From contig JAFPAQ010000218.1 in NCBI GenBank assembly GCA_017424235.1, positions 1-35,676 of the forward strand: DNA of 35,676 nucleotides, given 5' to 3'. The DNA comes from Lachnospiraceae bacterium (GTDB taxonomy: Bacteria; Bacillota; Clostridia; Lachnospirales; Lachnospiraceae). A program made the position numbers and the translations under genes. Below the pieces are notes generated by a model. The model worked only from the letters and a program-made list of their open reading frames with translations, did no database searches and was not told where the DNA came from. Positions 8,327-28,205 of this stretch are shown one piece after another (within the stretch, counting starts at the first letter, position 1; every line of letters begins with the position of its first letter).

Positions 8327-8466
8327 TATCGCAGAGCCTCACAGATGAAATTTGTCCTTACGGACATGAGGCTCGCGGACGAGTAGGAGGAAATAAATCC
8401 CCTCCTACTCGATTGTTATAGAAGTTTGCGATAGTGTAATCGGATGCGCCGGCATCCGATTTTTTT
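8327..8466. repeat. Dispersed intergenic repeat, copy A (multi-hairpin plus terminator stem)
   Basis: Between the ABC and AEC genes lies a folded block. A TATCGCA/TGCGATA inverted repeat (8327-8333/8427-8433) encloses two hairpins: GAGCCTCA/TGAGGCTC (8334-8374, with inner TGTCC/GGACA) and an 11-bp stem CGAGTAGGAGG/CCTCCTACTCG (8380-8411). Then comes the conserved family segment (8415-8438, GTTATAG...GCGATAGTGTA) and the hairpin ATCGGATGC-GCCG-GCATCCGAT (8439-8460) with a T-run on the plus strand that reaches the AEC stop codon. Copies B, C and D are listed separately. Confidence 0.8.
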
Positions 8467-15517: not shown

Positions 15518-15549
15518 AAAAAATTGGATGAATTTACATCCAATTTTTT
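15518..15549 (-). terminator. Terminator of the SBP-GGDEF gene
   Basis: 13-bp stem AAAAAATTGGATG / CATCCAATTTTTT with loop AATTTA, continuing as a long T-run on the minus strand. It lies 33 nt beyond the stop codon of the 1068-aa protein and just upstream of the PadR promoter. Confidence 0.85.
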
Positions 15550-15551
15550 AC

Positions 15552-15642
15552 GTTATAGGAAATTGCGATAGTGTAAACTATTTATTCAAGAATTTGCTTT
15601 TGCAAATTCTTGGAATCGGATGCGCTGGCATCCGATTTTTTT
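15552..15642. repeat. Dispersed intergenic repeat, copy B, overlapping a coding 3' end
   Basis: The 24-nt family segment (15552-15575; GTTATAGGAAATT...GCGATAGTGTA) is identical to copy D. Here it is separated from the family hairpin ATCGGATGC-GCTG-GCATCCGAT (15615-15636) by a 39-nt insert that contains an 11-bp stem CAAGAATTTGC/GCAAATTCTTG (15587-15612). The hairpin, insert stem and T-run are all read as codons of the minus-strand SBP-GGDEF gene, whose stop (15582-15584) lies in the insert. Confidence 0.85.
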
Positions 15643-18600
15643 ATATCTGCAAAATCAGCTATCCCTGCTCCATTTTTGCCGTTTTTCTTGACTTCATACA
15701 GCATCGCATCAGCCTGATTAAATATTTCGTTATAAGTAATTTTTTCATTAGAATATATCGCACCAAGACTGATAGAAAGATGATAATTTATATCCTGATA
15801 TATTATATCATTGTCCATTTCAGCCACTAACTGATTAAAATATGATTTGCTGTCTTCAAAAGATACACCGGACAGACATATAATAAATTCATCACCGCCA
15901 TATCTTGCACATATGCTTTTTGAAGGCATGAGGTTTTGGATTGTAAGGGCAAGCTTCTTTAATGCGACATCCCCACCTGTATGTCCCAAAGTATCATTTA
16001 CCTTTTTAAAATTGTCGAAGTCGAGAACAGCTACTGCAATCTGACTTTTTTCAGACCATTCATTAAGCAGACTGCTAAAGCTCTTTTTAAATCCATTTCT
16101 GTTATATAAACCGGTCAATGCATCCCTGTCTGCTTTCTCCTGAATAGAAAGCTTCTGCTCCATATCCTGCTGTACATTTATCAATTTACCAATATAATGA
16201 ATTCCATTTGCTGAGTCATCATCGATTTTATAGGCAGTCAGTATATACCATTGTGATTTTCCGGATATATCACGAAGCTCAAAAGGCTCTGTTCTTAACT
16301 GATTTTCATTTTCTTCAGGATTTGAATATCTGAGTAATATATCAACTATTGGATTATTATTGGTATATTTCAAAAGATTTACATTTTCATCAAAGCCAAA
16401 TTTATACTTGAATTTTTGGTCAAAATGAATTTTTTTACTTTCATAATAATACACAAATACATATTCATCTGTAAGCTGAGATAATATTTCAAATTTCTTA
16501 GTTTCAACAGCATGCTTTCTTGCACTTTTATATTTTTCATTTTTAAAATACAGAAATGAAATTATAAGTGCAAGAAATGTAAATACAATAATAGTCATGC
16601 ATTGTATTGGATTACTTTCTATATACCTTGATAGCGTGATATTTTTGGTAGGTGGACTCATTATCTCTGTGAGCATTAACTGAATATTTTCATTATCCTG
16701 ATTATACAGATATTTATTGCAAATAGTAATAAGTCGTGCATCAGCTGTTTTGGGATAAGCAAAACGCAAATTATGTCTTTGTGCCAAAGGCATTACAGTA
16801 ATATGATTATAATTGCCATATTTGGTATAATATTCAGCACTATAGTAATTAGTAATACCAAATGTAGCAGTTTTGTTACTGATTGATTGAATCATCCCTT
16901 TGATATTTTTTTCTTCAGTATATTTATCTGTAAGTATAATATCCTTTTTGGAATCTTCCCCCTGCACTACAGCCTGAACTGTATAAGGCAGGTCATCGAT
17001 AGCAATATCTTCAAGCTTTATTATTACATCAGAATATTCAATATATTCTTTAGAAAAATTGAATTTGTCAAGATACTCCTGTGAATATTCCAAACCTGCG
17101 GCCATATCGATTTCTTCAGCTTCCAATGCAAGCTGAAGCTCATAATTATTTCTATATGGAATATATCTAGCTTTTAGTCCTGACTCTGCTTCGATGGCTT
17201 TGCATAATTTAGCGGATAACCCTTCAAAGTCACCAATAAAAGAACCATTATTATATTTTGTATTAAACTGAAATGGAGCCATATCAGTCAGATATCCGAC
17301 TTTTATTTCCTGTTTTTGGGCAATATATTTTCTTTCAATGGTCGACAACGTCATATTTTTTTTGGAGTTTTCCAAATTAGTCGGTTCAACTATTGTTTGT
17401 GTTTCGTTTTCGTCTATTATAATGCCTGAAATACTATCCCTTGTAAAAGTTGGCATGTCCTCAGGCCTTGCTTTTTCCCAGCGTTTATTCCAGTCAAGAG
17501 ATATATCATCATAGGTTTCCTTTGAATATCCCTTTGCCGATTCAATAATTCTTTTTATCTGTAGGGTCGTATCAGGATTAAAAGCAGACCATAAAATATT
17601 TGCATAATAATAGTTTTTATCATGAAAGGTGTTATTCATCATGGCAATGGTATTTTCCATGTTTCCATATGATTTTGGAAATGGATCTGTTTTTACAATA
17701 GATACTCTCTCATCATCAATGGCATGTCCTGATTCATTAAGCATATAGTCAACATAGGCACGTGCAATTTTCTTGTTTTTACAATTTTTACTGATTGCAT
17801 ATGAGTAATCATTATATACTGTGATATACTGCACTCCATCAACCATATTAGGAAAAGGCATAAAACCTATTGAATCTTCATTTTTTGCAATATTTCTAAA
17901 CAATCGCATTGCCCATGAACCCATTACCATACAGCCAAGCTCACCATTTGCAAGCATATAACATGCCTTATTCCAATCCATTGAAGTTATATTATCTTCG
18001 CAAAGTCTTTTAAGTACAATATCATATAAAAGTCTGTAGGCTTCATAGTGATTACTTCCCTCTAAAAATGGATCTTTTTCATAAATGAACTTGTTATTTT
18101 TGTAATCAGCATCCCCCGTCATTTCAAAATATGGAAATGCTGTCCAGTAAAACAAAGGCCATTCAGAAGCATAATTAGTACAAAAAGGGACTGCATTTGT
18201 CCTTTCTTTTATAAGCTCCAAATCATTTATAAACTCGTCCATGCTTTTAGGAAGCTCTACTATACCTGCCTTATAGAATACATCCTTATTATAAATAATA
18301 CCTTCCAGATAAGCACTTGAAGGAAGCGCATACACAATATCTCCAAGCCTGCAGGTATTCTCCATGTAGTTGTATTGTTCGGATAATTCTTCGCACGTGC
18401 CAAAGGGCTCAAAGTATTGCTCATATTTATCAGAACCAATAAATCCCGGCATAAATAATACATCGCCATAATCATTTTCATCGATTTTTTGTCTTATGGT
18501 ATTTTCATAATCCGGTAAATAGTTATAATTTACAGTAACCTTAGGATATCGCTGTTTAAAACCCTCAAGATATTTTTCCATAATGCTTATATCTACATTT

Positions 18601-18788
18601 GACATTATATCTATGCTTCCTGACAGCATATCTTCAGATGCATACACCTTATTACATTTAATTATATCCGGATCTAGTGAACAAGACAAAAATATGAATA
18701 TCATCAGAAATATTATTCCTGATTTAAAATATAAATTCATATGCCTTAAAAATCTCATTTTTATATAAAACCTCTTGCTGCTATTCAT
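15582..18788 (-). CDS. Membrane diguanylate cyclase with two extracellular solute-binding domains (SBP_1 + SBP_3 + TM + PAS-like + GGDEF)
   Basis: 1068-aa predicted receptor. After an N-terminal hydrophobic segment (22-37) comes a sugar-type extracellular solute-binding domain (about 55-445; QRYPKVTVNYNYLPDY, GELGCMVMGSWAM). A second, family-3-type binding domain follows (about 490-705; IKVGYLTDMAPFQF, EEIDMAAGLEYSQEYLDKFNFS), then a transmembrane helix (729-747), a PAS-like region (about 765-875) and a GGDEF domain (about 880-1045). The active site is intact: RYGGDEF, motif at 964-968; DRDALTGLYNRNGF opens the domain. No RxxD inhibitory site precedes it. External ligands should therefore tune c-di-GMP synthesis. 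Residues 1050-1068 are encoded by repeat copy B. ATG 18788 has a weak ribosome-binding site; ATG 18758 is an alternative. Ligands are not determinable. Confidence 0.88.
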   Translation of the reverse strand: MNSSKRFYIKMRFLRHMNLYFKSGIIFLMIFIFLSCSLDPDIIKCNKVYASEDMLSGSIDIMSNVDISIMEKYLEGFKQRYPKVTVNYNYLPDYENTIRQKIDENDYGDVLFMPGFIGSDKYEQYFEPFGTCEELSEQYNYMENTCRLGDIVYALPSSAYLEGIIYNKDVFYKAGIVELPKSMDEFINDLELIKERTNAVPFCTNYASEWPLFYWTAFPYFEMTGDADYKNNKFIYEKDPFLEGSNHYEAYRLLYDIVLKRLCEDNITSMDWNKACYMLANGELGCMVMGSWAMRLFRNIAKNEDSIGFMPFPNMVDGVQYITVYNDYSYAISKNCKNKKIARAYVDYMLNESGHAIDDERVSIVKTDPFPKSYGNMENTIAMMNNTFHDKNYYYANILWSAFNPDTTLQIKRIIESAKGYSKETYDDISLDWNKRWEKARPEDMPTFTRDSISGIIIDENETQTIVEPTNLENSKKNMTLSTIERKYIAQKQEIKVGYLTDMAPFQFNTKYNNGSFIGDFEGLSAKLCKAIEAESGLKARYIPYRNNYELQLALEAEEIDMAAGLEYSQEYLDKFNFSKEYIEYSDVIIKLEDIAIDDLPYTVQAVVQGEDSKKDIILTDKYTEEKNIKGMIQSISNKTATFGITNYYSAEYYTKYGNYNHITVMPLAQRHNLRFAYPKTADARLITICNKYLYNQDNENIQLMLTEIMSPPTKNITLSRYIESNPIQCMTIIVFTFLALIISFLYFKNEKYKSARKHAVETKKFEILSQLTDEYVFVYYYESKKIHFDQKFKYKFGFDENVNLLKYTNNNPIVDILLRYSNPEENENQLRTEPFELRDISGKSQWYILTAYKIDDDSANGIHYIGKLINVQQDMEQKLSIQEKADRDALTGLYNRNGFKKSFSSLLNEWSEKSQIAVAVLDFDNFKKVNDTLGHTGGDVALKKLALTIQNLMPSKSICARYGGDEFIICLSGVSFEDSKSYFNQLVAEMDNDIIYQDINYHLSISLGAIYSNEKITYNEIFNQADAMLYEVKKNGKNGAGIADFADIKKSDASASDSKNLQKQILE

Positions 18789-18797
18789 AAACTATTA

Positions 18798-18865
18798 TTC
18801 CAAGCCAAAATCAATTCATTGATTTTTGGTACATAAATTGCGACTGCAAAGAACTTGGCTTGGAA
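18798..18865 (-). other. Structured leader upstream of the SBP-GGDEF gene
   Basis: An 11-bp outer stem TTCCAAGCCAA/TTGGCTTGGAA (18798-18808/18855-18865) encloses AAAATCAA-TTCA-TTGATTTT and TTGC-GACT-GCAA arms. It lies between promoter and start codon, ending 10 nt before ATG 18788. It could be a regulatory fold or a decayed repeat; the inner AAATTGCGA matches part of the dispersed repeat. Confidence 0.5.
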
Positions 18866-18922
18866 CAATTATTATAAAACAATATTAATAATAAGAAGTG
18901 ATACCGTTTGAATATCCTTGAT

Positions 18923-18951
18923 ATTATATCAAAATAAGGGATGTAAGTCTA
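18923..18951 (-). promoter_or_regulatory. Promoter of the SBP-GGDEF gene
   Basis: On the minus strand TAGACT (18946-18951, four of six matches to TTGACA), a 17-nt spacer and a perfect TATAAT (18923-18928). It gives a leader of about 130 nt containing the structured segment. Confidence 0.6.
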
Positions 18952-18977: not shown

Positions 18978-19010
18978 TAAAAATCGGATGCGCAGGCATC
19001 CGATTTTTTT
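18978..19010. terminator. Terminator of the chemoreceptor gene; hairpin-only copy C of the repeat family
   Basis: ATCGGATGC-GCAG-GCATCCGAT (18983-19004) flanked by an A-run and a seven-T run, 19 nt beyond the chemoreceptor stop. It has the same 9-bp arms as copies A, B and D but lacks the 24-nt segment. Symmetric flanks make it bidirectional. Confidence 0.85.
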
Positions 19011-19028
19011 ACGTATTATAATATTCTA

Positions 19029-21080
19029 TTAGTTTTCGGAAATCTTAAATTCCTGTACCAGATTTTGAAGCTTGCTGGTGTTGTTTTGATTGGTTTTTAA
19101 TATTTCATTCAGTACACTGGCAGTAGTATTTGTATTTTCATTTTTGGATACAATATCCTCTACCGCGACTTCATTATCTTTTGAAGCTAATCTGATTGAA
19201 TTAACCTGATCATTAATATCCTTCATCTCCGTTGAAAACTGTTGCATATCATTTTGAATTGCATTCATAATATCTTTAATACTTTCTACAGCTATGTTAT
19301 ATTCTTCAGATGATTTAGTGATTTCTTCAAAACGGTTAGCAACATCATTTTCCAAAAATCCAATTATCTCATCAAAACACTTTTGAACTGCTCCAATACT
19401 TGCATTAGTCTCATTGCAAATTTCCTGAATATTGGTTGCAGTATCAGAAGAGCTGTCTGCAAGCTTTGAAATTTCACTTGCAACTACTGCAAATCCTCTT
19501 CCTGCTTCTCCGGCTCTGGCTGCCTCAATAGAGGCATTTAGAGATAAAAGATTGGTCTGGCGTGTAATATCCAAAATCTCATTTGCCATATTATTTATTT
19601 GTGACAATGCTTCAAGATCAGACATTGCGGTTTCTACATTCTTTTGATTTTTTTCAATATTTCTGCGTGAGGCTTCCAAAGAATCTTTTACAATGTTTTT
19701 CATTTCAATAGAACTCTTACTAAGTTCAGCACTTTTATTATAACCTTGTTGTATACGTTGTTCTACATCATTCATCATACCAACAATGTGATTCATTCGG
19801 TCTTCCATTATCTTTATGGATTCATTTGTAGAAATAATACTTGCTGCCAGCTCCTGAGTAGTTGCAGCATTTTCGATAACATTATTCATTAAGCCGGAGG
19901 ACTCTTCATTCATAGTATCTGAAGACTCCAGCAGTGAATCTGAAGACTGCTTTAATACATCCACAATCTGGGTGAAGCTTTTTCTTAAGGATTCAACTGC
20001 TGTAGCAATAACACCTATTTCATTTGTATGTCCAATGTAGGATGTGATTTCTTTGGACTGGCTTAAATCCAGATTTTGCAGCTTTTTAATGGACTTTTCA
20101 ATTTTATTTAAGGGCTTTGTATTTATGCGAACAATAATCCAGGTCATGAACAGAATTAGAACATATGCAACAATGCAAATTAATCCTAAAATAATTTTAT
20201 TCTCTTTGACTACTTCAAAAACTACACTTTCCTTAGCAGTTATAATAATGGCCCAACCCCTGTTTGACAGATATGTATACATACCAATACATGAATTATT
20301 TTCTTCATCCTTGAATGTAAATGAATCATATTTTTGTTCAGGATTTTTTTCTATCATTTCAATAACCTGTAATAGCATGGGGTTTTCTATTGCTTTTCCT
20401 GCAAGAGAAAAGTCTTTGTCAAAAATGTGCAATCCTGTTTTTATATTAATCATATATGAATCGGTTTTTCCATCATTTGTTAACTCTGATAATTTCTCAT
20501 GGAGAGCATCTGCATAAACACCGCCACCGGCATATCCTATAGGCTTACCGGTATCCAGGTTATATATTATTTTGTACATGGAGGTAATCAGCTTTCCACT
20601 GGCAGGTGACACAATAATACCTGCATTATAAAATTCATTTGTTAAAAGCTCATCTTGTAATTGTTTAAGAGATTCTCCTTCACGCATAGTAACATCAATC
20701 AAATCAGGATTTTGGTGTACCTTCACTGTTGAATCCCAGTCACATATGTAAATACCTTCCCATTGATCAAGAAATTCAAAATAACTGTCAGTAAGGTTTT
20801 GTGCTTCATTTTTTAAAGGCTTACTTTTTTTAGAATCCAGATACTTTGCAAGCGTGGGTGTCTGAGCATAGGCACTAAGCAGATTTTCATTTTGAATAAC
20901 ATACTCTTCTATTATTTTTCCCTGTCCCTCTAAGGAAGTTTTCATGTTTTCCAGTTCACTTTCTTTCATTGCTGCTGACATATTGTTATTTGCTGTAATA
21001 TATAAAAATGTAATTCCGGCAAATGCAATAATTGCAACAGCTGAAGTAATGATGGAACGCAATTTCATTTTTTTAAACAT
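19029..21080 (-). CDS. Methyl-accepting chemotaxis protein with dCache-type sensor
   Basis: 683-aa receptor: transmembrane helix 1 (about 9-29), an extracellular sensor of about 260 residues with double-Cache character ([43 protein letters not shown]), transmembrane helix 2 (about 295-316), a HAMP region (about 317-370) and a long cytoplasmic signalling coiled coil. The conserved hairpin tip is plain: [20 protein letters not shown], then [11 protein letters not shown]. Such proteins control CheA and flagellar rotation. ATG 21080 follows AGGAGGGG. It has its own promoter and terminator and lies between the two GGDEF genes. The ligand is unknown; amino acids or carboxylates are common for dCache sensors. 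Confidence 0.93.
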
Positions 21081-21142: not shown

Positions 21143-21231
21143 GCAATATTAGTACAATTGCATAAATTAACACTTATTAGCTATTAGTAATGTAAATTAA
21201 TCTGTTAATTAATGAATAAATTAGGCAAAAA

Positions 21232-21284
21232 ATCGGATGCCGGCGCATCCGATTACACACTACACTATCGCAATTTCCTATAAC
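21232..21284. repeat. Dispersed intergenic repeat, copy D (inverted), terminator for the AraC gene
   Basis: Read on the minus strand, this is the 24-nt family segment (21261-21284), 7 nt, then ATCGGATGC-GCCG-GCATCCGAT (21232-21253) followed by six T. The orientation suits termination of the leftward AraC/GH8 transcripts. The 24-nt segment is identical to copy B. Confidence 0.85.
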
Positions 21285-21332: not shown

Positions 21333-22001
21333 TTAGTTATATGCCCTTGTTCTTTTACGATATGTAGTAGGAGAACATCCTTTCATTGCTATAAATTTGT
21401 TTACAAAATAATCAGCATCGTTATAGCCTACTGTTTCCGCAATTTCATATACCATATCATCAGTTTTTATCAAAAGCTCTGAAGCCTTATCAATTCTGCA
21501 TTTATTAAGATATTCTCTAAATGATATACCATAAGCTTTTCTGAAAATCTGTCCAAGATAGGCACTGTTTATATAGAATTTCTGTCCCATCTCTTTGAGA
21601 GATATATTCTGGCTGTAATTTGATTTCACATAGTTCTCAATCTGTACTACAACTTTCTGAGAATTATTGCTTCTTAAATGGCAAAGGTAATCCGCAAAAT
21701 CAACAACTGTTTTCTCAAAAAGTTCTCTTTTACTGTTTTCACTTTCGTCATTTATTGAATTTTTACGGATTCTCTGAATAATCTCATACTGATTAACTGT
21801 ATTATCCTGCTCCATAGCCATATATGCCAGCTGCATTAATAGATAGTCCATATTCATACGGATAAATTCAGCATCCATATCCTCCACAAATAATTCATCA
21901 TAGATTGCCCATACAGAATCATGTATTTTAATTTTGTCGTTTTCAATTACACCCTCTAAAAGCTTATCAACAGTACTTTTTGATACTATTATAGATTTCA
22001 T
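21333..22001 (-). CDS. AraC-family regulator lacking a receiver domain (YesN C-terminal type)
   Basis: 222-aa protein. The C-terminal about 100 residues form an AraC double helix-turn-helix: ISLKEMGQKFYINSAYLGQIFRKAYGISF... and VYEIAETVGYNDADYFVNKF, then KGCSPTTYRKR. The N-terminal about 120 residues are helical and resemble the linker of YesN-type response regulators. The phospho-receiver domain normally in front is absent, and the GH8 gene ends only 45 bp upstream, so there is no room for it. It is last in a minus-strand order of sugar-binding GGDEF, GH8, AraC and probably controls the neighbouring xylan genes. The leader has GGGG 7 nt before ATG. Confidence 0.85.
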   Translation of the reverse strand: MKSIIVSKSTVDKLLEGVIENDKIKIHDSVWAIYDELFVEDMDAEFIRMNMDYLLMQLAYMAMEQDNTVNQYEIIQRIRKNSINDESENSKRELFEKTVVDFADYLCHLRSNNSQKVVVQIENYVKSNYSQNISLKEMGQKFYINSAYLGQIFRKAYGISFREYLNKCRIDKASELLIKTDDMVYEIAETVGYNDADYFVNKFIAMKGCSPTTYRKRTRAYN

Positions 22002-22046: not shown

Positions 22047-23189
22047 TTAATAAATTCTATAATTTCCACTTAAAGCAAGGAAAGCAAAGAAATATAAGCA
22101 GTTATCGTAATATCTCCATTTTCCTCTTCTCATTGGCTGATTCCAGAAGCTGCCAATCCATTCCATCTTGTTCTCACTTTTTGAAGCAAGTGAAGCCTGA
22201 GCTACTGTTGCGCCTATAGCAACCGGATGCAATGCCTGACTGTCTACAACTGTACCATCAATTTCAAAGATATGATAAGCTCCATTTCTCTTATATGGTA
22301 ATAAGAAGTCCTGTATCTTTGTAGTTGCAGCACACTGTCCTTCATCTGTTCCAAACCATTCATAGTCAAGACCGATATTTGCAACAGTTCTATAAGAGTC
22401 ACTGAAGAACCAGTCATGTCTGTCAGTTGTCCAAGGCAGAGGACGACTCATCGGTGTACCATCAAATTCTGCATATTCTGCCGAAAAACCGGTGTCAGGA
22501 TGACATGCTTTTACGAGATATTCACGGCTCGCTTTTGCTGCTAATTTCCAAAATTCCCGGTCTTCTTCGTCTGCCCACTCTGCAAAAAGTTCATAAAAAT
22601 GTGGCAAATGATAAGATGGATCTGTGAAATCAATACCTGGAACAAACAAAATCTGATGGTTTTCTCTGTTCCACATAGGCACACCTATTCTGCCGTTTTC
22701 GCCCTTATGTATGCAGGCTGACAATATTTTTTTAGCTTCCTGCGAATAATTAAAGATGCCTTCTCCATCTCCCCATCTGTGAGAAGCAAAGAATAAAGCC
22801 ATTGCAAAGAATTCTTCTCCGTCAGGTGCCGGGCCATCTGCATTTTTTGTTCCATCTAGAGCACACGACCATGCAAAATATCCTTCATTAAAACCTGTTT
22901 CCATCCACATATAGGTTTTTGCCCATTTCCAGATACGGTCAAATTCCTCTTTCATATCAAGCTGGACACATATCATCATGCCATATGACATGCCCTCTGT
23001 TCTTGCATCAGTATTACCTGTATCCATTATATATGCCATATCATCACCAACAGGATAATAAACTCTTTCATCATCATTTCCATAAAAATAATATTTTTTG
23101 ATCTCATTAAGACGCTGTTCTACAGCTTCATCTGAAATTCCCAAATCTTTAAAATAGTTTTTATATTTTTTGTTCTTGTAATCTATCAT
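22047..23189 (-). CDS. GH8 reducing-end xylose-releasing exo-oligoxylanase
   Basis: 380-aa cytoplasmic enzyme (no signal peptide) of glycoside hydrolase family 8, most like the Rex enzymes (EC 3.2.1.156) such as Bacillus halodurans BH2105, which remove xylose from the reducing end of xylo-oligosaccharides. E65 in TDARTEGMSYGMM is the expected general acid. The Asp in WTTDRHDWFFSDSYR (about D259) is the probable base. Full length compares well with the family (about 380-390 aa). GAGGAAAA precedes ATG 23189. It sits 51 bp downstream of the cytoplasmic sugar-binding GGDEF gene and 45 bp upstream of the AraC gene. Intracellular location implies that oligosaccharides are imported first; no importer is in this window. 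Confidence 0.9.
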   Translation of the reverse strand: MIDYKNKKYKNYFKDLGISDEAVEQRLNEIKKYYFYGNDDERVYYPVGDDMAYIMDTGNTDARTEGMSYGMMICVQLDMKEEFDRIWKWAKTYMWMETGFNEGYFAWSCALDGTKNADGPAPDGEEFFAMALFFASHRWGDGEGIFNYSQEAKKILSACIHKGENGRIGVPMWNRENHQILFVPGIDFTDPSYHLPHFYELFAEWADEEDREFWKLAAKASREYLVKACHPDTGFSAEYAEFDGTPMSRPLPWTTDRHDWFFSDSYRTVANIGLDYEWFGTDEGQCAATTKIQDFLLPYKRNGAYHIFEIDGTVVDSQALHPVAIGATVAQASLASKSENKMEWIGSFWNQPMRRGKWRYYDNCLYFFAFLALSGNYRIY

Positions 23190-23240: not shown

Positions 23241-25163
23241 TTATTTATTTTTGTGTACCACATTTTTTCGTGATTTTTTTATTGTATACATCATCTCATC
23301 TGCCCTGCTTATGTAATAATCTATGTCATATCCGGGATTTTTGGGATCTGTAATAATATATCCTATACTTGCCGATAATGTTGCAGGTAATTGATTGGTT
23401 TTATTGTAATCTGATATTTTATTTTCTATTTTTTCTTTTATTAATTCAGCTTCTTTGTCAGATTCACAAGTTCCCATCATCAAAAATTCATCTCCACCGT
23501 ATCTTATACAAAAACAGGTATCATTTAATCTTGAATCATTGATTATTTCAGAAAGCTTTTTTATTGCCATATCACCTGCATCATGACCATAGGTATCATT
23601 AAGTTTCTTGAGACAGTCCATATCTGCAAATAGGAAAAGCGTCTTTTTATTATTGCTAAAATTTTCCTTAAGCAATGGTTCACCAATACTTTTTAATGCA
23701 AATCTGTTATATATTCCTGTCATGGCATCCCTGACATACATATTGTTAAGCTTATGGTTAAGTTCACGAATGCGGTTATTTTGTTTAATATTTTCCAATG
23801 CACTATTTAAAACACTTACATAATAGAACATATCTCCATTATTTACGACAGTACTGTCATATTCAAATATGCAATATCCCATTGTATTGCCATTTAAATG
23901 CATTGGCATAATGGCAAATACATGATTATTATGGTCAGGGTCTTCGGATTTAGAACCAAAACCATAAGGTATAATCTGCTTTGTATCTACATATGTGCTC
24001 GGACTGTAATCACCACTTGTCTTTTCAAACAGAATCTGCATTCTTTCTGTATAACCATTTTCATTTGGTTTTAAATTATACGAAGGACTGTCTTCCTCAG
24101 CAAATTCATTTTCATTAGTAAGAATACAAAAATCTTCTACCTTCAATGTAAAAAGCTCACGGTATAAAGCACTTTTGAGTTCTTCCATGTTATGGCATAT
24201 CATCAGATTTTTCTGAAAATAATTTACCTTCCACCTTGAATGCATTATACTTCTGTTTTTATGTGAGCGTTCCCTTAAAATTTCTGCATAATCATCAAGA
24301 TTTGACATACATCCACAGCTTCCGTTTACACACAGCTTATGTTTTGTATAGGTCGCATGCGGATATTCTTTGCCATCTATTAAACCTAACAATTCTTCAA
24401 GACTGTTTTGTCCTAATTCAATAGTACTTCTGCCAACACTTGTTATTCCCGGAAAGTATTCTCTACCTAAACTGCTGTTATCAAATCCTGTAATAATAAG
24501 GTCATCAGGTACTTTGTAACCATGCTCTGTCAACATATCTGCATATCCAAGCGCAGTATCATCGTTTGCACATACAACTGCATCAGGAATCTCAATGCCG
24601 GATTCTTTGAAATAATGGTATGCTTTAATTCCACTGTCATAAGTAAAATAATAATCCTTCATGCGCTTTTCTTCAGGAATAATACCATGATTAGTCAAGG
24701 CATCAATAAAAGCTCTTTTACGCTCTTTATTTTCGGGATGTTCAGTTGGTCCACCAATGTAATTCAAGGTTTTGCATCCATGTTTTTCTATGAGATGTTC
24801 TACAAGCTCATACATTGCCTTGTAATTATCAGTTCCAACAAAATGGAGCTCTTCTATATCCTGCTCAATGCTTATGCATGGAATTTCATTTTTTATTATC
24901 TTTTCAATAATATGATTAAGTCTGTTTAGTGAATGTGCATTATTTGACAGAATCAGTACACCATCAAACAACTCAATTTGTGGAAGGTCAAATATATTGT
25001 ATTCACATTCATTAAATTTTTCATCACCCTCAAATCCACCATAGTTGTTAAAAATATATACGTCTGTATTTGTTTCATCTGCCTTTTGCTTTATTCCTGA
25101 AAGAACTCTGCCTACATGTTCATCATTCCATGTGGTGGAAAATACTATAATTCTTCTCTTCAT
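23241..25163 (-). CDS. Cytoplasmic LacI-type sugar-binding domain fused to GGDEF diguanylate cyclase
   Basis: 640-aa soluble protein without signal peptide or membrane helix. Residues about 4-285 form a periplasmic-binding-protein/LacI effector fold (GVLILSNNAH, YIGGPTEHPENKERKRAFIDAL, AVVCANDDTALGYADMLTEHG, ITGFDNSSLGREYFP) but no helix-turn-helix precedes it. A Cys-rich turn (CVNGSCGC) links to a GAF-like region (about 310-460). The GGDEF domain (about 468-633) has an intact RYGGDEF; an RLND upstream is two residues too far to be the usual inhibitory RxxD. It should make c-di-GMP according to a cytoplasmic sugar, plausibly a xylo-oligosaccharide given the adjoining GH8. ATG 25163 is preferred: AAGGGG lies 8 nt upstream. 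Confidence 0.88.
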   Translation of the reverse strand: MKRRIIVFSTTWNDEHVGRVLSGIKQKADETNTDVYIFNNYGGFEGDEKFNECEYNIFDLPQIELFDGVLILSNNAHSLNRLNHIIEKIIKNEIPCISIEQDIEELHFVGTDNYKAMYELVEHLIEKHGCKTLNYIGGPTEHPENKERKRAFIDALTNHGIIPEEKRMKDYYFTYDSGIKAYHYFKESGIEIPDAVVCANDDTALGYADMLTEHGYKVPDDLIITGFDNSSLGREYFPGITSVGRSTIELGQNSLEELLGLIDGKEYPHATYTKHKLCVNGSCGCMSNLDDYAEILRERSHKNRSIMHSRWKVNYFQKNLMICHNMEELKSALYRELFTLKVEDFCILTNENEFAEEDSPSYNLKPNENGYTERMQILFEKTSGDYSPSTYVDTKQIIPYGFGSKSEDPDHNNHVFAIMPMHLNGNTMGYCIFEYDSTVVNNGDMFYYVSVLNSALENIKQNNRIRELNHKLNNMYVRDAMTGIYNRFALKSIGEPLLKENFSNNKKTLFLFADMDCLKKLNDTYGHDAGDMAIKKLSEIINDSRLNDTCFCIRYGGDEFLMMGTCESDKEAELIKEKIENKISDYNKTNQLPATLSASIGYIITDPKNPGYDIDYYISRADEMMYTIKKSRKNVVHKNK

Positions 25164-25169
25164 ACACAT

Positions 25170-26536
<1,367 letters not shown>

Positions 26537-26628: not shown

Positions 26629-28167
26629 TTAATTTTCGTATCTGAAATCTGAAAATTTTGCTATTCCCCCCATTTCTTTAGTTGCATAGGAAACAAGACC
26701 TATTCTGCAGCCACAAAAATGCTTTAAGCTGAATGAAAGCTTCTTTGTAATACCAAGCTTATGCCACTCTCTGTCAGAAGCAGTTTTATAATAAAAGCAG
26801 GCTTCATCTGTCATATTCTCAAAGTCAGCTGATATTTTAAAATTAACTTTTGTATCAGTTATCTCAATTGATTCATGTACCTGTTCATAGGCATCATTAT
26901 CTTTATCAATGTTTTCAAGCATTACTAAGCTATATTTATTATCTTCTTTTTTCAACGCAATAAATCCATAACTGTATTGAAGAATACATAATCCGGCATA
27001 ATCTCCATTTTTCAGATTAGAAGCATCTACTGTAACCTCAGCACAACATTTAGGATAAGTCATTCTCTGTGTTATAATGTTTCTTGCCAAGGTAAGTCGG
27101 TTACATATTTTCTGATTTTTTACTATCCATTCTCCATTACAGGTATCAAGCTCAAATGAACCGGTATCAGGCTCATGATTAAACTGCCACATACTCTTTA
27201 ATCCAAAGCTGTCATAAGCCTTTTTGTTATTATCAATATCTTCCTGTTTATATTTAAAATTATCACTTCCAATTAAAGGGATTAAATCTTTTGAATTATC
27301 CGGTGTACTTTCGATTCTAAAACCTTTTGGCATAGCCATATTGTTGCCAAATACCGGAAAATCATTTTCCCATGTGACAGGTACTATTATTGGAATACGT
27401 CCAACAGCACCACTGTCCTGAAACATAACTGAATACCATTTGCCATCAGGTGTGTCTACTATTCCGCCCTGGGCTATACCCTGTCCACAGTATCCCATAT
27501 CATCATTAAATACGTCTTTTCCAATAAATTCTCCATCGATAGATTTTGACATAAAGCAAGCCTCAACACGTCTCCATTTGTCAGCAAGTGAATGTATGAA
27601 AAATACATAATAATTTCCATTTATTTTGTAAAAATGAGCACCCTCATATCCAAGCATAGGATTATCTTTATCACTGACTATCAGACGATTTATTCCACCT
27701 TCTTTTGGGGCGGTTAAATCACTGTTCAATTCTGTCAGATAAATATTCTTATTACCATAAACAATATAAACTCTGTCATCATCATCAAACAATAAGGAAC
27801 AGTCATGATAAAAACCCTCAATTGTACTCTTTTTCCACGTACCATATATATCGGATGCAGTATAAAGATAGGTTTTGTGTGTATCATTGGCAACAAAACA
27901 GATATAAAATAACCCCTTATGATATCTTAAGGAAGCTGCCCACATTCCTTTTCCATATATACCTTCATCATCGGTAAGAGTCTGCCCTTTTGTACTGTCC
28001 AATTTGTCATATACATAGGTGGCATGCTCCCAGTTTACAAGATCATTTGATCTTAATATCTCGCAGCCAGGCATAAAATGCATGGTTGTACTTACCATAT
28101 AATAAGTGTTATCTACCCTGATTATATCCGGATCAGGATAATCTAAGTTAATCATTTGATTAATCAT
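26629..28167 (-). CDS. GH43 beta-xylosidase / alpha-L-arabinofuranosidase
   Basis: 512-aa cytoplasmic glycosidase. The N-terminal five-bladed propeller (about 1-300) shows the GH43 triad: D12 in DYPDPDIIR (base), D122 in YHDCSLLFD (pKa modulator) and E175 in GYEGAHFYKINGNYY (acid). The C-terminal about 190 residues form a beta-sandwich accessory domain (DTGSFELDTCNG...; YAGLCILQYSYGFIALKK; GCRIGLVSY) typical of two-domain GH43 enzymes acting on xylo-oligosaccharides and arabinosyl side chains. ATG 28167 is chosen because GGAGG lies 5 nt before it; an upstream ATG overlaps that site. No signal peptide, so substrates must be imported. It forms a xylan-degradation set with the GH8 and the esterase. 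Confidence 0.9.
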   Translation of the reverse strand: MINQMINLDYPDPDIIRVDNTYYMVSTTMHFMPGCEILRSNDLVNWEHATYVYDKLDSTKGQTLTDDEGIYGKGMWAASLRYHKGLFYICFVANDTHKTYLYTASDIYGTWKKSTIEGFYHDCSLLFDDDDRVYIVYGNKNIYLTELNSDLTAPKEGGINRLIVSDKDNPMLGYEGAHFYKINGNYYVFFIHSLADKWRRVEACFMSKSIDGEFIGKDVFNDDMGYCGQGIAQGGIVDTPDGKWYSVMFQDSGAVGRIPIIVPVTWENDFPVFGNNMAMPKGFRIESTPDNSKDLIPLIGSDNFKYKQEDIDNNKKAYDSFGLKSMWQFNHEPDTGSFELDTCNGEWIVKNQKICNRLTLARNIITQRMTYPKCCAEVTVDASNLKNGDYAGLCILQYSYGFIALKKEDNKYSLVMLENIDKDNDAYEQVHESIEITDTKVNFKISADFENMTDEACFYYKTASDREWHKLGITKKLSFSLKHFCGCRIGLVSYATKEMGGIAKFSDFRYEN

Positions 28168-28205
28168 AAAAACCTCCATTGAAGAAAAAATTCCGAAAAT
28201 GCCTA

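Follow-up and report, generated by a model that had tools for sequence, protein, structure and literature searches.

A Lachnospiraceae receptor that joins two different flytrap domains to a GGDEF domain, and a proposed role in oligosaccharide sensing

A single gene in a 35,676-nucleotide stretch of the genome of a gut Lachnospiraceae bacterium (GenBank assembly GCA_017424235.1, contig JAFPAQ010000218.1, positions 1 to 35,676; this whole stretch is called the window below) encodes a predicted membrane receptor in which two solute-binding domains of different families stand in tandem before one membrane helix, a PAS-like linker and a GGDEF domain. We propose, at a probability of roughly 0.55, that it is a diguanylate cyclase regulated by extracellular oligosaccharide, laid out like the sensor kinase BvgS and with an inner flytrap that acts mainly as a relay. 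Tandem flytraps on a diguanylate cyclase are already known from CdgH; the mixed pair, one SBP_1 and one SBP_3 domain, is what is new. Articles are cited by PMC number, and each citation holds for passages of the article rather than for the whole of it.

Architecture and conservation of the receptor

An earlier interpretation of this DNA, made from its letters alone (the sequence-only reading), had described a 1068-aa chain with two binding domains, one transmembrane helix, a PAS-like region and an intact GGDEF motif. The open reading frame is as described; we add that it lies on the minus strand, the opposite (plus) strand frame at 15582-18788 being full of stops. The receptor and its parts are as follows.

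15582..18788, minus strand: receptor gene (SBP_1, SBP_3, transmembrane helix, PAS-like, GGDEF), 1068-aa frame as called
18636..18740, minus strand: predicted signal peptide, about residues 17-51
17439..18626, minus strand: outer flytrap of SBP_bac_1 type, residues 55-450, kin of BlMnBP1
16641..17321, minus strand: inner flytrap of SBP_bac_3 type, residues 490-716, closest to the second flytrap (VFT2) of BvgS
16539..16610, minus strand: transmembrane helix, about residues 727-750, from hydropathy
16179..16481, minus strand: PAS-like linker, about residues 770-870, from family evidence only
15666..16142, minus strand: GGDEF domain, residues 883-1041, motif at 964-968 intact

A profile search, which that reading had suggested, confirmed that the two binding domains are separate. 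Pfam placed SBP_bac_1 at residues 68-354 (E 4.6e-29, 102.8 bits against a cut-off of 26), SBP_bac_3 at 495-629 (E 1.2e-9, 38.4 bits against 26.4, covering profile positions 1-98 of 132) and GGDEF at 886-1039 (E 6.1e-37). Hydropathy gave two hydrophobic stretches, near 16-45 and near 723-751, in agreement with one transmembrane helix beside a signal peptide. The PAS-like region held up only in part. Between helix and GGDEF the window receptor has no Pfam match, and a profile of the region matched nothing in the PDB up to E 1, whereas across the family Pfam (E up to 1) found PAS_3 in 7 of 16 members (best E 6.1e-5) and PAS_9 in 6 of 16 (best E 0.0056). We call the linker PAS-like on these grounds, which fall short of proof.

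The GGDEF letters at 964-968 are those originally given, and the domain carries D923, N931 and D940, which we take to be its metal- and guanine-binding residues. The RxxD inhibitory site, common in cyclases and not required, is absent; PSKS stands at 955-958. By domain, motif and substrate residues the receptor is thus predicted to be an active diguanylate cyclase. The source genome also encodes putative readers of the lifestyle signal cyclic di-GMP (c-di-GMP), with three PilZ matches and one c-di-GMP-I riboswitch. That riboswitch (L115 3830-6079, source-genome contig C62) lies just upstream of a secreted-looking 749-aa protein, which has a transglutaminase-like match below the cut-off and is followed on L115 by a seven-transmembrane histidine kinase with a receiver domain.

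The survey of Lachnospiraceae that the sequence-only reading had also proposed showed that the layout recurs, in relatives 34-42% identical. Nine of the 38 genomes of the genus, the source genome among them, encode at least one such receptor, six with nearly the whole SBP_1-SBP_3 span and three with cut or irregular copies only. A wider scan of genome contigs returned 19 loci, all Lachnospiraceae by title, 15 of which match nearly the whole span; 13 of the contigs are shared with the genus survey and six are new (L054, L056, L058, L060, L063 and L065). Both binding domains occur in one frame in 4 of 397 genomes drawn from the family (own included, four genera), and in the source genome alone among draws of 391 genomes from the class and 398 from the phylum; the draws overlap, and each scored the two best candidates per genome with matches at E 1e-100 or better. 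Pfam found SBP_bac_1 and SBP_bac_3 in all eight relatives scanned, three from other genera among them, and GGDEF in seven; the GGDEF motif is present in 16 of the 19 proteins of the wider scan, and two of the three misses are contig-cut. Because the layout recurs nearly whole at 15 of 19 loci and both binding domains in 8 of 8 relatives, it is conserved beyond chance. L067 (a receptor), L051 and L052 are among the contig-cut copies; L106 and L108 carry SBP_1. An assembly or frameshift artefact was rejected as the source of the fusion, since other assemblies show the same layout within a single open frame, although a few relatives are irregular.

The source genome holds a paralogue (L050, contig C67) of 629 aa whose domains are SBP_bac_3 and GGDEF alone, with 42% identity over the shared part. 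In an unrooted tree of that part it pairs, among the receptors, with the window receptor (support 96/95). It also stands directly before gltB-gltD (glutamate synthase), as do receptors L039 and L042, three genomes in all. Given this pairing and shared place, loss is the simpler account, and L050 most likely lost an outer domain. The SBP_1-less cyclase was accordingly not kept as the ancestral form, L050 nesting with the receptors unless the root falls on its own branch. Nor was a split version, with binding protein and cyclase as separate chains, borne out: no cyclase lies beside the three best free SBP_1 matches (G181, G119 and G257), whose surroundings look by eye like transporter operons. 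On our interpretation, the receptor family would offer an oligosaccharide-type flytrap on a cyclase together with a natural control, the outer-domain-less paralogue of the same genome.

The outer flytrap and the loci of related receptors

The outer domain is kin to a group of transport proteins. Its best PDB match is BlMnBP1 (6i5v; E 6.6e-56, 193 bits, residues 71-441), and the next sugar-binding protein outside the BlMnBP1 group scores 49.5 bits (E 1.6e-12). BlMnBP1 and BlMnBP2 of Bifidobacterium animalis subsp. lactis bind beta-manno-oligosaccharides (PMC8106489); they are free transport proteins, whereas the receptors form a branch of their own. In a tree of 73 SBP_1 domains, built by a quick method and with no root inferred, a branch with SH-aLRT 100 separates all 21 receptors from 50 transport proteins plus BlMnBP1 and BlMnBP2. 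Of 89 columns conserved at 90% or more in the 52 transport-side rows, 54 have the same letter in at least 80% of the 21 receptors, the tryptophans W215, W272 and W292 being among those kept. Asn63 of BlMnBP1 touches the sugar at subsite 2 (PMC8106489), and its counterpart in the receptor could not be placed with certainty. The PDB table names entry 6fuv BlMnBP1, and passages of the same review name it BlMnBP2.

The neighbourhoods of the 19 receptor loci were examined by clustering of open reading frames, with chosen neighbours scanned against Pfam. Genes of beta-mannan type occur at four of them (L041, L056, L067 and L040). At L041 a solute-binding protein, two permeases, a glycoside hydrolase of family GH130 and the receptor follow one another in operon-like order on the same strand, with a last gap of 142 bases; L056 has the same order on one strand with GH26 in place of GH130 and a last gap of 88 bases. 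At L067 the receptor is preceded by GH130, a GDSL esterase, GH1/PMI, a methyl-accepting chemotaxis protein and an aldolase. L040 runs receptor, HD-domain protein, LacI, GH36, LacI, AraC, binding protein and permease; in its continuation, L118, lie an epimerase-type protein and two GH130 genes. GH53 galactanases lie near three further receptors (L039, L044 and L054), and at L106 a GH106-like protein precedes the receptor and an ATP-binding cassette (ABC) importer set follows it. The kinship with BlMnBP1, the kept tryptophans and the mannan-type loci therefore favour an oligosaccharide as the ligand class of the outer domain.

Mannan as the sole ligand class was not kept: GH53 lies near three other receptors, and the window has a xylan-like set. 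We suggest tentatively, at less than even odds, that in Lachnospiraceae an ABC-type binding protein for plant oligosaccharides became, in a single capture event, the outer flytrap of a BvgS-type tandem, and that its paralogues became tuned to different beta-1,4 plant glycans: mannan, galactan and, in the window, possibly xylan. Such a family would give a direct route from fibre breakdown products outside the cell to c-di-GMP inside it, for which uptake is not needed.

Two side observations concern the output. A PAS-GGDEF-EAL protein stands next to the receptor at L054 (11126-12796) and an HD-domain protein next to that at L040 (4171-5313), so these loci may couple the synthesis of c-di-GMP with its breakdown.

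The inner flytrap, a proposed mechanism and its rivals

The inner domain belongs to a different group. A profile of it (17 rows) matched BvgS best in the PDB (4q0c, E 5.7e-40, in two stretches) and gave E 4e-27 with isolated BvgS VFT2 (3mpl). Behind BvgS came EvgS (E 3.9e-16), the amino-acid binding AncQR (E 2.4e-15) and a glutamine transporter domain (E 3.6e-14). The seventh row was 5gzs (E 1.8e-13), taken to be CdgH, as it is labelled a GGDEF family protein and has 446 residues like the construct of PMC5431781. By score, BvgS VFT2 stands at 98.5 bits against 60 for amino-acid transport proteins.

We take a TPER-type motif to mark the position of the carboxylate-binding arginine in this domain, and located that position by the motif together with alignment to BvgS, which has the arginine there. 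None of the 18 rows covering it has arginine: 12 have Tyr, three His, and one each Gly, Leu and Ala; in the window receptor the residue is Tyr572. Both BvgS flytraps carry the arginine in the alignment, and the loss is therefore the receptor family's own rather than that of the BvgS group. VFT1 of BvgS is mobile, and VFT2 crystallised in the closed form with no ligand bound; kinase activity is abolished when VFT1 is closed but stays unchanged when VFT2 is locked shut (PMC4352136). The nearest relative being BvgS VFT2, with this behaviour, and the arginine missing in 18 of 18 rows, the inner flytrap is less likely to sense an amino acid than to serve as a relay or to respond to some other kind of signal.

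This weakens the example offered by the sequence-only reading, a sugar on the outer domain and an amino acid on the inner one, which we now consider improbable. SBP_bac_3 is mostly an amino-acid-binding family, and AncQR and the glutamine transporter domain are among the inner domain's PDB matches. The family is called amino acid-specific in PMC9602780, and in CdgH both domains bind amino acids, the carboxylate-binding residue of the first, PBPb-I, being R109 (PMC5431781). Against this stand the absent arginine and the higher score of BvgS VFT2.

A second possibility is that the receptor integrates two ligands, an oligosaccharide on the outer domain and, on the inner one, a small molecule that is not an amino acid, c-di-GMP output depending on both. 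Conservation of the inner domain is good, the 17 rows sharing an N-x-Y-x-A motif and further invariant columns; the paralogue that lacks the outer domain retains it; and nicotinate binds BvgS VFT2 (PMC4352136). Conservation may, however, mirror packing rather than binding, and a VFT2 that is closed without ligand, and whose closed lock leaves kinase activity as it was, points the other way. We regard this possibility as rather unlikely.

Under our preferred reading, regulation by an extracellular oligosaccharide with the inner flytrap as relay, the outer SBP_1 flytrap would catch a plant sugar chain outside the cell and close. The inner SBP_3 flytrap, having lost the usual amino-acid grip, would mainly pass on the movement, and strain would travel along the one membrane helix and the PAS-like linker. 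This strain would fix the mutual orientation of the two GGDEF domains in a presumed dimer, which in turn would determine how fast c-di-GMP is made. As to sign, we lean slightly towards ligand raising c-di-GMP, in keeping with attachment to fibre; BvgS, in which closure of the outer flytrap switches the kinase off (PMC4352136), opposes this. The reading opens two subjects: the c-di-GMP cues of fibre-degrading gut Lachnospiraceae, and the passage of a signal from one flytrap through a second.

The order in BvgS is distal flytrap, proximal flytrap, one helix, PAS and output (PMC4352136); the receptor follows it for the two flytraps, the helix and the output, and where BvgS has PAS it has the linker that is PAS-like by family evidence only. 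A proximal flytrap of BvgS VFT2 type and a single helix before the output match the BvgS-type layout. Unlike BvgS and EvgS, the receptor ends in GGDEF rather than a histidine kinase, and its distal flytrap is SBP_1, of another family. CdgH of Vibrio cholerae has tandem PBPb domains and GGDEF, and its outer part dimerises, with ligand changing the dimer; it resembles the receptor in having two tandem flytraps outside and GGDEF inside on a single chain, but both its domains are amino-acid-binding PBPb, whereas the receptor has an oligosaccharide-type SBP_1 outside and an inner domain without the arginine (PMC5431781). RmcA of Pseudomonas aeruginosa, a phosphodiesterase that responds to L-arginine, is likewise a c-di-GMP enzyme under flytrap control, and a 2022 review states that of 27 families of the PBP clan SBP_bac_3 alone had been studied in c-di-GMP networks (both PMC8846402). 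In the open-licence literature, with subscription papers and preprints outside that scope, we found no GGDEF protein described or characterised as carrying an SBP_1 domain; the one paper there that contains both terms uses them in unrelated places (PMC4618731). The earlier statement that no characterised example was known thus holds within that scope for the mixed pair, and not for tandem flytraps on a cyclase. A related arrangement is NspS-MbaA, in which a polyamine-binding protein controls a c-di-GMP enzyme and the binding protein is a separate chain.

Several observations weigh against our reading. At 12 of the 19 loci, the window and L106 included, no mannan or galactan enzymes were found among the neighbours examined; the window's own neighbours look xylan-like, not mannan-like; and no GH26 gene shares a contig with any of the 14 receptor places in the genus. 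In favour of the reading, four of those 14 places have GH130 or GH53 at a distance of 10 kb or less, where 0.49 are expected (Poisson p 0.0016); GH130 alone gives 2 of 14 (p 0.010) and GH53 alone a weak 2 of 14 (p 0.045). These p values are a guide only, being post hoc, with families picked after the neighbours had been viewed and contig-cut copies counted. BvgS VFT2 keeps the arginine that the receptor family has lost, so the analogy is incomplete. Since a paralogue in the source genome does without the outer domain, the inner flytrap may bind a separate ligand. Irregular relatives occur as well: residues 116-185, part of the outer domain, are missing from L066, and the PAS-like region (757-870) from L065; L064 stops after the helix, and in L049 (2-1984, on a contig shared with L070 and contig-cut) SBP_3 is joined to GGDEF with about residues 694-890, helix and PAS-like region, missing. 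Some of these, L049 among the candidates, may be assembly errors rather than real variants. Finally, all 50 transport proteins have a [KR]TD loop behind the first strand, and it is absent from all 17 receptors judged and from the window receptor (L058 and L107 could not be scored, and L070 was discounted for its missing N-terminus); its loss may mean that binding or specificity of the outer domain has changed.

The deletions and the paralogue on contig C67 are also what would be expected if the protein were a decayed or constitutive cyclase whose sensor domains are out of use. Both sensor domains nevertheless exceed the Pfam cut-offs in all eight relatives, and the GGDEF motif survives in 16 of 19 proteins with two of the three misses contig-cut, which makes decay very improbable.

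Loop loss would likewise fit an outer domain that no longer binds sugar freely but reads transport traffic by docking, either on an ABC transporter or on a free binding protein. That binding proteins can stimulate receptors is generally known (PMC9602780), and sugar-importer genes lie near the receptor at four of 19 loci (L040, L041, L056 and L106). At the other 15, however, that of the window among them, the neighbours examined included no gene recognised as a sugar importer, and the conserved tryptophans of the binding proteins are retained; we consider docking highly improbable. The same counts qualify the claim that the receptor works without any transporter, which is right for the genes adjoining it in the window and does not extend to those four loci.

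The receptor gene and its neighbours in the window

The limits of the gene may be over-called at both ends. The N-termini of most aligned homologues are shorter, which speaks against the called ATG, and by eye no clear ribosome site precedes it; the true start is perhaps Met11, with AGAGG 12 bases upstream, or Met17, with AAGG 3 bases upstream, both spacings non-ideal by eye. Signal peptide cleavage sites follow an A-x-A-type rule; the predicted site, VYA|SE, is A-x-A-like, behind the hydrophobic stretch near 16-45, and several relatives have VQA, VHA or VSA near this place. At the other end, residues 1051-1059 or so have no counterpart in aligned relatives and are encoded by a copy of a dispersed palindrome, ATCGGATGC-N4-GCATCCGAT, of which the genome holds 30 copies and none of the reversed control. 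Four copies lie in the window (8438-8461, 15614-15637, 18982-19005 and 21231-21254), two of them terminator-like.

15614..15637, no strand assigned: palindrome copy in the last codons of the receptor gene
18982..19005, no strand assigned: palindrome copy between the receptor gene and the chemoreceptor gene
18923..18951, minus strand: promoter-like site 5' of the receptor gene (57 such sites in the region against 58.3 expected in shuffles, hence no enrichment)
15518..15549, minus strand: terminator-like hairpin directly 3' of the receptor gene (the region has 8 of these against 4.3 expected)

The receptor gene is probably transcribed alone. Its leader, just 5' of the start codon (18790-18870, minus strand), contains a long inverted repeat, TTCCAAGCCAA/TTGGCTTGGAA, with a fold z-score of -1.96; 7 of 200 shuffles fold equally well. 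No Rfam family, riboswitches included, reached gathering level in the window, three weak matches near the receptor gene start lying far under their gathering scores.

Upstream of the receptor gene lie the following genes.

19029..21080, minus strand: chemoreceptor (MCPsignal), the upstream neighbour; Pfam E 2.7e-26
21333..22001, minus strand: AraC-type regulator; Pfam HTH_18 E 5.8e-21
22047..23189, minus strand: GH8 glycoside hydrolase; Pfam E 1.1e-20
23241..25169, minus strand: cyclase-like protein with a LacI-type binding domain and GGDEF, from Pfam; no DNA-binding domain found
25589..26536, plus strand: putative esterase, a partial match to the xylanase/feruloyl esterase family, far below cut-off
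26629..28179, minus strand: GH43 with a beta-xylosidase-type C-terminal domain, from Pfam

We take GH8, GH43 and the esterase together to be a xylan-like set. On other contigs the source genome holds GH130, GH26, GH36 and a free MnBP-like binding protein. The LacI-type/GGDEF protein beside GH8 and the AraC-type regulator is perhaps an intracellular sugar sensor that acts on c-di-GMP too.

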